From: Acidimicrobiales bacterium
Lineage (GTDB): Bacteria > Actinomycetota > Acidimicrobiia > Acidimicrobiales > CADCSY01
Assembly: GCA_035512495.1 (NCBI GenBank)
Contig: DATKDW010000025.1
Coordinates: 1 to 64,000 of the forward strand
Reading direction: 5' to 3'
DNA length: 64,000 nt
How positions within the stretch are numbered: position 1 is the first letter of the stretch; every line of letters starts with the position of its first letter. Below, in pieces: positions 16,088-19,611 of the stretch. The notes below the pieces were generated by a model. That model did not search any database. It saw nothing but the letters and a program-made list of their open reading frames with translations, and was not told the DNA's origin. Both the position numbers and the translations under genes were made by a program.

Positions 16088-17062
16088 GTGGCCTTCGACC
16101 GCGGTGACGTCCCCGACCGAGTCGGGCCGGACGGGGACGGGCCCACGCTGACCCGCCGACACCTCCTACTGGCCGGCGCCGGCACCCTCGCCCTCGCCGC
16201 GTGCGGCGGCGGGACGACCGACGAGGACACCACCGAGGCTGACGCCGTCACCACCACCAGCGAAGGTGAGCCGGTCGACGCGGAGGCACCAGAGGAGACG
16301 GGCGCCGAGGGCGGCCTGATCCTGGCGCGCGTCTTCCTTGCGCAGCAGCCCGTCGGACACGAGATCCGGCTCCCACTCGCCCTCGCCGACGCCGAAGGGG
16401 CGTTGCTGAGCGACCCGCCGCGGTCGATCTCGGTGCGGGTGGGGCCCGCCGACGGCGAGCTCGGCGAGGCCGTCACCATCGAGCGACACGACCGGGGCAT
16501 CCCCCGCCCGTACTTCCCGCTGCGGACCACCCTGACCGCCACCGGCGCATGGCGGATCGTGGCCGACGCCGAGGGCACGCTGGCCGAGACCGTGGTCAAC
16601 GCCATGCCGCCCGGCGAGCTCCCTGCCGTGCCCCGCCCCGGCGACCCCCTGGTCGCCATAGAGACCCCCACGCGGTCCAACCCCCGGGGCGTCGATCCCA
16701 TCTGCACCGCCGACCCGCCCTGCCCGCTCCATGCCGAGAGCCTCCGCGACGTCATCGGCGGTGACCGGTCCATCGTGCTGCTCGTCTCCACGCCGGCGTT
16801 CTGCCAGACGGCGATCTGCGGCCCGGTGCTCGACCTCGTCGTGAGCCGGCACGAGGCGTACGCCGACCGGGTGGCGATGATCCACGCCGAGGTGTTCACC
16901 GACACCACCGCCACCACCTACACCGACGTGGTGCGCGCCTACGGACTCCCCTTCGAGCCGGTGCTGTTCCTGGCCCGACCCGACGGCACCGTCGTCGACC
17001 GCCTCGACTACACCTTCGACTCCACCGAGCTCGAGCAGAGCCTGCGCGCGCTCACCTCCTGA
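16088..17062 (+). CDS. Tat-exported lipoprotein with thioredoxin-like domain
   Basis: 324 aa. Twin-Arg T-R-R-H-L-L-L-A-G-A-G with lipobox L-A-A-C near residue 39, an acidic Thr/Glu linker, an Ig-like middle region (about 75-180), then a thioredoxin-like domain (about 205-320) with F-C-Q-T-A-I-C-G-P. The C-x4-C pair replaces the usual CxxC, and P-V-L-F-L matches the cis-Pro strand region. It probably acts outside the membrane in thiol redox or metal delivery. GTG 16088 follows TAGGTT by 7 nt and diverges from the fusion gene with overlapping -10 elements. Confidence 0.7.
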   Translation: MAFDRGDVPDRVGPDGDGPTLTRRHLLLAGAGTLALAACGGGTTDEDTTEADAVTTTSEGEPVDAEAPEETGAEGGLILARVFLAQQPVGHEIRLPLALADAEGALLSDPPRSISVRVGPADGELGEAVTIERHDRGIPRPYFPLRTTLTATGAWRIVADAEGTLAETVVNAMPPGELPAVPRPGDPLVAIETPTRSNPRGVDPICTADPPCPLHAESLRDVIGGDRSIVLLVSTPAFCQTAICGPVLDLVVSRHEAYADRVAMIHAEVFTDTTATTYTDVVRAYGLPFEPVLFLARPDGTVVDRLDYTFDSTELEQSLRALTS

Positions 17063-17104: not shown

Positions 17105-17782
17105 ATGGGAGAGCGCCGCCGGGACCGCAAGGACGACGATGGGACAGCCGACAAGGAGGCCCGACGCGCCCTGCGCCGCGAGGAGCTGCTCGACGCCGCC
17201 AGCGAGGCCATCCGCCGGGACGGGCCGGCCATCTCGATGGAGGCGATGGCCGCCGCCGCCGGGGTGACCAAGCCGATCCTGTACCGCCACTTCGGTGACC
17301 GCGACGGCTTGGTCCTCGCGCTCGCAGGCCGCTTCTCCACCAACCTCATGGCCGAGCTCCAGCGCTCACTGGCCACCGCCGCCGAGCCGCGCGACCTGCT
17401 GGCCTCCACGATCGACACCTTCGTCGCCTTCATCGAGGCCGACCCCGAGCTGTACCGGTTCCTCGTGCACCGGGCCGCCCGGGAAGAGCCAGGCGCCGCC
17501 GACGAGCTCCAGGGGTTCATCCGCCAGGTCAGCCAGCAGGTGACGCTCGTGCTGGGTGAGCAGATGCGCCTCGCCGGGCACGACTCGGGGGGAGCCGAGC
17601 CCATCGCCCACGGCATCGTCGGCATGGTCCACGCCGCCGGCGACTGGTGGGTCGACCGGCGGACCATGCCCCGCTCCCGACTCGTCGAGTACCTCACCAC
17701 CGTCCTCTGGGACGGCATGGTGTCACTGAGGCTGCCGGCCATGCCCGCCGAGCCCGTCACCGCTGAGGAGACCAGCCGATGA
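17105..17782 (+). CDS. TetR-family transcriptional regulator
   Basis: 225 aa. The N-terminal helix-turn-helix (about residues 25-75) reads R-R-E-E-L-L-D-A-A, I-S-M-E-A-M-A-A-A-A-G-V-T-K-P-I-L-Y-R-H-F-G-D-R-D-G-L. The ligand-binding C-terminal domain is the WHG/TetR_C type, with R-F-L-V-H-R-A and G-I-V-G-M-V-H-A-A-G-D-W-W. A palindrome inside its promoter is the likely operator. Its stop overlaps the ATG of the membrane protein gene (ATGA), so both are probably controlled together. Confidence 0.88.
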   Translation: MGERRRDRKDDDGTADKEARRALRREELLDAASEAIRRDGPAISMEAMAAAAGVTKPILYRHFGDRDGLVLALAGRFSTNLMAELQRSLATAAEPRDLLASTIDTFVAFIEADPELYRFLVHRAAREEPGAADELQGFIRQVSQQVTLVLGEQMRLAGHDSGGAEPIAHGIVGMVHAAGDWWVDRRTMPRSRLVEYLTTVLWDGMVSLRLPAMPAEPVTAEETSR

Positions 17783-19611
17783 CCCACCTCGTCACCTTCG
17801 CCCTCGCCGCCGACCTCGGGCCCGGCGGCGACGCCAGCGGCAGCGCCCTGGCCAGCTGGCAACCTCTCACCGTCCTCCTCGTGATCTTCGGGCTCGTCGT
17901 CACCGCCCTGCTCATCGGCGGCCGGGCCCCGGCAACCTCCACCGGGATCCTCGACCGCACGCTGCTCCGGATCCCCGACGCCCTCGAGCGCGTCGCCAAG
18001 ATCCCGGGGTGGGCGGCGGCGACGGTGGGCACCGGCCTCTTCGGCCTCCTCGTGGCCGGGCAGGGCTTCTACAGCGACGTCGCCTGGCACATCGCCCTCG
18101 GCCGCGACGACGAGCTGTTCACCGCCCCCCACATGTCGATCCTCATCGGCCTGGTGCTCATCGCCTCGGCGGCCGCCCTCGGCATCCTCTTCGCCACCCT
18201 CGGCCGGGTCGACGTCGGCCTGCGCTGGGGCGGCCTGCGCATCCCCTGGTCGACCATCCCGCTCGGCGCCCTCGGCGTGGCGGCGGTGTCGGGCTTCCCC
18301 ATCGACGAGGTGTGGCACGGCGCCTACGGCATCGACGTGACCATGTGGAGCCCGCCCCACATGGTCATGATCCTCGGCGCCTCCTTCACCGGCCTGGCCG
18401 CCTGGCTGGTCCTGGCCGAAGCGGGCGTCCCCCTCCGCGGGGGCAGCTCACGGTGGCACCGGGGCATCCACGTCGTCGGGGCTTGGCTCACCCTCCAGGG
18501 CCTCTCCGCCGCCCAGGGCGAGTTCGCCTTCGGCGTGCCGCAGTTCCAACAGCTCTTCCTCCCGATCCTCCTCTGCCTCGCCGCGGGCATCGGCCTCACC
18601 GCCATCCGCCTGATCCTCGGCCGGGGCTGGGCCATCGGCGTCGCCGTCGGGTCGTTGCTCCTCTCCTACTCGGGCCTGCTCAGCTTCGGCGCCGAGAGCG
18701 AGGGCGGCGGGCCCGTCCCCACCCGCGACGGCGGGCTCTACGTCGCCGCCGCGCTGGCCGTCGAGCTCGCCGCCTGGCTGGTCGGCACCGAGCGCCGCCT
18801 CCGCTTCGCCCTGGTGTCGGGGCTCGGTGTCGGCACCATCGGCCTCGCCGGCGAATGGGCGTGGAACGCCGACTGGGCGCTGTCCGACGGCGGCTACCAG
18901 CCCTGGAACACCTCCCTCCTGCCCGAGGCAGCCATCTACGGGCTGGTGGCTGCGCTGGCTGGCGCCGTCATCGGCGCCGCCCTCGCCGGCGCCGTGCGCC
19001 GCGAGGGGCGGGCCGGGCGCGTGCCCACCCCCGCCCTCGTGCTCGCCGGGCTGGCCGCCCTGGCCACCATCGCCCTCCCCATGCCCCGCCCCGTCGGCGA
19101 CGTGGTGGCCGACCTGCGCCTCACCGACGCGGGCGACGGCGAGGCCAGCATCGAGGTCATCCTCACCCCGGCCGACGCCGCCGACGACGCCCGCTGGTTC
19201 CAGGCCATCAACTGGCAGGGCGGTGAGCTGGTCATCGCCGAGATGGAGCGGAAGGGCGAGGGCCGCTACGTGTCCGAGCGCCCGATCACGGTCGAGGGCC
19301 GGGGCAAGACCCTCCTTCGCCTGCACCGGGGCAGCGAGATGATGGCGGTGCCCGTCCGCCTCCCCGCCGACCCCGAGATCGGTGAGCCCGAGATCCCCGC
19401 CGTCGACCGCGTCGCCCCCTTCGTCTCCGAGCAGCAGTACCTGCTGCGGGAACAGACCGACGGCGTCGCCTGGGTCTCGTGGGCGGTCCACGGCCTCGCT
19501 GCCCTCGCCGCCATGGCATGGGTCACCGCCTTCGTCGTCGCCGCCAAACGCATCGGAGACCTGCCCCCAGGCCCCGTGCACCAGCGCGAGCCGGCCGCCA
19601 GCGACGCCTAA
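17779..19611 (+). CDS. Polytopic membrane protein with duplicated W-H...P-H-M motif
   Basis: 610 aa, roughly ten membrane segments plus an outer beta-rich domain (about residues 430-560) and a last anchor helix. Two copies of one motif sit at membrane edges: D-V-A-W-H...G-x-D...A-P-H-M (D100, W103, H104, G108, D110, H118, M119) and D-E-V-W-H...G-I-D...P-P-H-M (D176, W179, H180, G184, D186, H194, M195). Four His and two Met could bind a metal or haem. It is coupled to the TetR gene by ATGA. Family and function not recognised. Confidence 0.8.
   Translation: MTHLVTFALAADLGPGGDASGSALASWQPLTVLLVIFGLVVTALLIGGRAPATSTGILDRTLLRIPDALERVAKIPGWAAATVGTGLFGLLVAGQGFYSDVAWHIALGRDDELFTAPHMSILIGLVLIASAAALGILFATLGRVDVGLRWGGLRIPWSTIPLGALGVAAVSGFPIDEVWHGAYGIDVTMWSPPHMVMILGASFTGLAAWLVLAEAGVPLRGGSSRWHRGIHVVGAWLTLQGLSAAQGEFAFGVPQFQQLFLPILLCLAAGIGLTAIRLILGRGWAIGVAVGSLLLSYSGLLSFGAESEGGGPVPTRDGGLYVAAALAVELAAWLVGTERRLRFALVSGLGVGTIGLAGEWAWNADWALSDGGYQPWNTSLLPEAAIYGLVAALAGAVIGAALAGAVRREGRAGRVPTPALVLAGLAALATIALPMPRPVGDVVADLRLTDAGDGEASIEVILTPADAADDARWFQAINWQGGELVIAEMERKGEGRYVSERPITVEGRGKTLLRLHRGSEMMAVPVRLPADPEIGEPEIPAVDRVAPFVSEQQYLLREQTDGVAWVSWAVHGLAALAAMAWVTAFVVAAKRIGDLPPGPVHQREPAASDA

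Follow-up and report, generated by a model that had tools for sequence, protein, structure and literature searches.

An unannotated actinobacterial membrane protein family with a duplicated, invariant Asp/His/His unit and probable kinship to PmoC

The window analysed here, a stretch of 64,000 nucleotides from an Acidimicrobiales bacterium, contains the gene for a membrane protein whose family is widespread in actinobacteria, conserved and without annotation. The protein carries an internally duplicated unit whose Asp and His residues are invariant across the homologues compared, the family is related at the profile level to HmoC and PmoC, forms of subunit C of the copper membrane monooxygenases and the nearest known relatives that we found, and its genome context points to copper and to lipid/alcohol metabolism. 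We favour, with moderate confidence, the reading that this is a stand-alone PmoC-like copper protein working at the outer face of the membrane, where it would most likely (mono)oxygenate or otherwise oxidise a hydrophobic substrate.

Results

The open reading frame (17779..19611, plus strand) runs as the initial annotation had placed it, from an ATG at 17779 to a stop codon ending at 19611, and encodes 610 residues with approximately 13 predicted transmembrane (TM) helices, an outer beta domain and a C-terminus predicted to be cytoplasmic. The thirteen helices obey the positive-inside rule, which places the two Asp/His/His sites, a third conserved patch and the beta domain on the outer side and leaves the C-terminus inside. 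This third patch, E248-F-x3-V253-P-Q255 (18520..18543, plus strand), was recognised by conservation and topology at the outer end of TM6 and possibly contributes an extra ligand or residues of the substrate site. AlphaFold2 models reached a pLDDT of 88.7 for the full protein and 92.4 for the PmoC-like core, which comprises residues 77-214 (18007..18420, plus strand) in the order TM2, site 1, TM3, loop, TM4, site 2 and TM5, as delimited by HMM alignment to HmoC/AmoC and by the model. In the AlphaFold2 model, D100/H104 and D176/H180 terminate helices 77-106 and 159-183, H118 and H194 begin helices 116-141 and 192-202, and all ligand residues of both units are on one membrane face. Pfam and NCBIfam assigned no family to the protein or to its distant homologues, and PDB sequence searches with the single protein, the full alignment and the domain alignment returned no relevant match.

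The beta-rich outer domain that had been claimed is present in the model as a sandwich of residues 443-547 (19105..19419, plus strand), weakly FixH/CcoH- or YtkA-Ig-like on the basis of the model, Foldseek and FixH scores. Foldseek matched it to the CcoH-type chain 9g6b_C (probability 0.80), and FixH (PF05751) was matched in two homologues only (E=0.04 and 0.15; 12-14 bits, below the cut-off of 23). It shares with FixH/CcoH and YtkA-like Ig domains (PF05751, PF13115) the arrangement of an outer beta sandwich beside a TM helix, but all matches lie below Pfam cut-offs and the family's domain is fused to a PmoC-like core. No conserved metal ligands were seen in this outer domain, which may stand in for PmoB.

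Homologues occur in Actinomycetota, with 15 loci in the species-genome collection; a class-level search found them in 9 of 296 genomes and a phylum-level profile search in 47 of the 396 actinobacterial genomes sampled, representing 31 of 237 genera. The window's genome has a second family copy on another contig, and one locus (L007) has two copies in tandem. Within the conservation set of 46 sequences, identity to the window protein falls as low as 21-23%. There is a short, distant subfamily of about 470-520 residues (L022-L024, L119, L120 and L131); in the three members examined, an A-H-D-P-G-Q-G stretch is conserved ahead of the outer domain; this stretch resembles a site of the signal-peptidase type and could expose an N-terminal His. 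Separately, an ORF on contig 26 of the window's genome (L027:1285-3213, minus strand) has no Pfam assignment and matches the family's outer beta domain only, and weakly (35% over 71 residues).

Unit 1 (residues 100-119, DVAWHIALGRDDELFTAPHM; 18076..18135, plus strand) and unit 2 (residues 176-195, DEVWHGAYGIDVTMWSPPHM; 18304..18363, plus strand) repeat D, W, H, G, D, P, H and M at equal spacing, as the initial annotation had noticed. Their patterns are D100-V-A-W-H104-I-A-L-G-R-D110-...-P-H118-M and D176-E-V-W-H180-G-A-Y-G-I-D186-...-P-H194-M, both of the form D-x3-H-x13-H (residues 100-118 and 176-194). The internal duplication that had been suggested was borne out by hhalign comparison of the two units within the family alignment (P=7e-10, probability 96.6, score 47.6), the highest of 100 column shuffles scoring 17.9. 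Since this profile match lies so far above the shuffles, we regard the two units as a true internal duplication. Sixteen positions are invariant in 46/46 sequences (D100, H104, G108, R109, D110, H118, G124, D176, W179, H180, G184, D186, W190, H194, E248 and V253), and there are zero exceptions to either Asp/His/His triad among these homologues. They include all four His whose conservation had been put forward as a check (H104, H118, H180 and H194), together with R109 in unit 1 and W179/W190 in unit 2, which had escaped earlier notice. The Trp thought to be common to both units is invariant as W179, whereas position 103 is merely mostly W or Y, and the proposed Met ligands fell away, M119 and M195 being variable across the 46 homologues. 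As for the metal or haem site envisaged from the four His, invariance and correspondence to the CuC and CuD sites of PmoC argue for a metal, and haem gained no support. The metal is likely to be copper, and the additional ligand Asp instead of Met.

In pMMO, CuC is formed by D156, H160 and H173 with R165 hydrogen-bonded nearby, CuD, the putative active site, is formed by N227, H231 and H245, and copper has been seen in CuC or CuD, the two sites being about 6 A apart in the structures (PMC12576850). D100, H104, R109 and H118 of unit 1, which we term CuC-like on the strength of its invariance and this ligand match, pair with D156, H160, R165 and H173 of Methylococcus capsulatus PmoC; D176, H180 and H194 of unit 2, termed CuD-like as it is equally invariant and in register in whole-domain alignments, pair with N227, H231 and H245. 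The offsets in PmoC are D, +4 H, +9 R, +17 H and N, +4 H, +18 H, compared with D, +4 H, +9 R, +18 H and D, +4 H, +18 H in the window protein; the last interval of unit 1 is +18 in most family members, and L022 and L023 have +4, +9 and +17, exactly as in PmoC. Both families present D-x2-[WY]-H-x4-R-D-...-H and then [DN]-x3-H-x13-H in the same order, each unit flanked by the two helices of a TM hairpin, and at a similar separation (71-73 residues in PmoC, 76 in the window protein and 65-68 in the distant subfamily). They differ in size (about 610 residues versus about 255 in PmoC), the family having seven or more additional TM helices and the outer beta domain, in the Asp of the CuD-like site where PmoC has Asn, and in that the family's two units still resemble each other.

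To compare the families at the profile level, reference PmoC, AmoC and HmoC sequences were collected from plasmids and viral contigs, and a family profile of residues 57-300 was run against the 4262 ORFs of all loci. The match is significant and strongest to actinobacterial HmoC: the top non-family sequences were HmoC of Rhodococcus and Mycolicibacterium (E=2e-5, 22 bits), with alignments spanning both sites in register, Nitrosomonas AmoC scored E=0.0027, and the best unrelated ORF E=2.2. Shuffled PmoC/HmoC sequences (4262 of them) attained a maximum of 11 bits, and in the reciprocal search a family member came first after PmoC (E=7e-4). With hhalign, the family aligned with HmoC alone at P=7e-5 over 111 columns across both sites. 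Alignment with PmoC gave P of about 0.001-0.002 at low probability, a result not relied on alone, which lay above 150/150 column shuffles, with 1/150 block shuffles near or above it. Unit 1 aligned with the CuC region at P=2.5e-5 (score 27.8; shuffles at most 16.6). Compared with the CuD region by itself, unit 2 gave no significant hhalign match, and nor did PmoC's two units against each other, so that a duplication shared by PmoC is no more than suggested; the PmoC signal comes mainly from the CuC-like unit.

Other searches were less favourable. The Pfam AmoC/PmoC model PF04896 did not detect the family above its gathering cut-off, and a PDB profile search did not return PmoC, the PDB chains of which are from methanotrophs and ammonia oxidisers, with no actinobacterial HmoC seen among them. 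Foldseek searches of PDB and viral models with the full model and the core yielded no significant match, PmoC ranking 38th and 21st (TM about 0.38, E 1.1-1.6), and the remainder of the window protein did not match PmoA or PmoB. In view of the weak CuD unit and the PDB profile and Foldseek results, we consider homology to PmoC/AmoC/HmoC probable rather than certain. No PmoA/PmoB partners were found in the neighbourhood, nor in the genome with PF02461/PF04744, in searches that had no positive control. As the protein lacks Pfam membership, such partners and a significant fold match, we have not classed it as PmoC; its sequence instead suggests a divergent relative of the PmoC/AmoC/HmoC kind, one that we did not find described in open-licence papers. 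Two papers on divergent CuMMOs present them solely as complexes of A, B and C subunits (PMC9038741, PMC12533140), and among open-licence papers we found no stand-alone PmoC-like protein.

The closest homologue adjoins genes for a redoxin, DsbB and a CopC-CopD-YtkA fusion. The family resembles this fusion in combining an outer beta domain with a multi-TM layout, but itself has no sequence match to the CopC or CopD models. The plasmid copy of Mycolicibacterium vanbaalenii JOB5 lies beside CopC within a copper island, and mycobacterial copies sit among copper-resistance genes. In three genomes (L128, L129 and L132) a gene for a small cupredoxin-like lipoprotein and one for a second membrane protein lie downstream of the family gene, and homologues of this second protein, together with the small gene, flank true hmoCAB in M. 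chubuense NBB4, M. dioxanotrophicus and Rhodococcus ZPP. The HmoCAB hydrocarbon monooxygenases of mycobacteria and rhodococci thus have the same accessory pair nearby, but consist of three subunits with PmoA- and PmoB-type partners.

The accessory pair has no Pfam or NCBIfam annotation and is located at L128:10090-11963, L129:9764-11625, L132:10201-11891, L133:2724-4519, L134:6077-7980, L135:4131-5938 and L136:15291-16882, in settings that include true hmoCAB, the family gene and mycobacterial copper islands; it is a candidate copper-supply module for copper monooxygenases. Its membrane protein, of about 430 residues, contains the stretch LMAHSLIPIVxGYVFAHYLTYL, and the name 'fenitrothion hydrolase' found no confirmation for it and is not applied here. 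A haloarchaeal homologue of this protein in Haloferax (L219:3689-5098) lies beside a heavy-metal P-type ATPase, and others are on Rhizobium and Sulfitobacter plasmids.

In two relatives (L015:5941-8484 and L026:643-3153) the family protein is continuous with a short-chain dehydrogenase (SDR), joined at the predicted cytoplasmic C-terminus; since the two fusions are 45% identical to each other, both possibly arose from one event. In other relatives, a gene for an SDR-type epimerase or for a fatty-acid desaturase lies nearby. In the window, a gene for a TetR regulator (17105..17782, plus strand) lies directly upstream of the family gene and overlaps its start in an ATGA. It combines TetR_N with TetR_C_32 (E=1.5e-26) and is FasR-like, scoring 80.8 bits with the FasR equivalog against a cut-off of 330, and because of this resemblance an acyl-type ligand is plausible. 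A related TetR is found directly upstream in at least ten relatives, and other family branches have a MerR neighbour instead. The TetR-controlled small-molecule response that had been predicted is thus upheld as regards the coupled, conserved regulator, but the evidence fits an enzyme or copper protein controlled by TetR or MerR better than it fits a sensor. Immediately upstream of the TetR gene, 16088-17062 encodes a lipoprotein that has no Pfam match and contains a thioredoxin-like C-x4-C segment (FCQTAICGP); it is not conserved beside other family members and was left out as a partner.

Discussion

The neighbourhoods would also suit a PmoC-like protein that binds, stores or relays copper at the outer face of the membrane for other cuproenzymes or for copper resistance and catalyses nothing, a role we think rather unlikely. 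Genes for CopC/CopD/YtkA, a redoxin, a cytochrome c oxidase assembly protein, CbtA and the cupredoxin-like lipoprotein lie near family members, the FixH/CcoH-like fold of the outer domain serves cbb3 oxidase assembly, and copper handling would equally accommodate the mycobacterial copies among resistance genes and the Haloferax accessory protein beside its ATPase. The absence of a transport-like repeat beyond the site argues against it, as do the SDR fusions, the FasR-like TetR and the desaturase/SDR neighbours, which suggest metabolism of a compound; moreover, the Asp/His/His ligands with their Arg are closer to the pMMO catalytic centre than to Met/Cys-rich transfer sites. Less probable still is a membrane metallo-hydrolase or other Zn/Fe enzyme that reached the D-x3-H..H pattern independently of PmoC. 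Zinc is also bound by His/Asp sites in membranes, crystallographic PmoC first held Zn at CuC (PMC12576850) and Foldseek gave no confident fold match, but the reciprocal HMM and hhalign results, with ligands and Arg in register, and the copper-related neighbours speak for kinship with PmoC.

Two further readings are improbable. As a small-molecule sensor or transporter under TetR control, the protein would have its His in structural rather than catalytic roles; the conserved coupled TetR and the numerous TM helices fit this, but conservation of the polar triads far exceeds that of the rest of the protein, Pfam and NCBIfam gave no transporter family match, and we consider it very unlikely. We give least credence of all to the alternative raised in the initial annotation, haem held by the four His as bis-His ligands: these are invariant and near one membrane face, yet an invariant Asp accompanies each pair, joined in unit 1 by R109, as in CuC, they lie at helix ends across a helix-loop-helix rather than on facing helices as in b-type cytochromes, and no haem-protein family or fold was matched with Pfam, NCBIfam or Foldseek.

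In the favoured reading of an oxidising PmoC-like copper protein, two tandem helical hairpins would each bear D-x3-H-x13-H at the outer membrane face and form an adjacent pair of three-ligand copper sites, one CuC-like (D100/H104/H118, with R109 in the second shell) and one CuD-like (D176/H180/H194). We infer that these would bind copper and make up one centre, covered by the outer FixH/YtkA-like domain in PmoB's place. O2 activated at copper would oxidise a membrane-soluble, lipid-like substrate, and the alcohol produced would pass to NAD-dependent dehydrogenases inside the cell, fused or adjacent in some relatives, with expression switched by the acyl-ligand-type TetR. We suggest, more tentatively, that the family makes up a widespread branch of single-chain proteins within the copper monooxygenase superfamily, working without PmoA and PmoB, that has kept symmetrical, duplicated CuC/CuD hairpins. 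If this is true, it would represent a minimal natural pMMO active site and show its origin by tandem duplication.

The location of the catalytic copper in methane and ammonia monooxygenases has been disputed for decades, and a trimeric complex of three subunits does not lend itself to dissection. The CuC/CuD region of PmoC is favoured by recent work (PMC12576850). Single-chain proteins that share this ligand pattern could be expressed and mutated alone, and the family would add to the tree of an enzyme group on which the carbon and nitrogen cycles depend centrally, while a conserved and wholly unannotated gene would gain a testable function.
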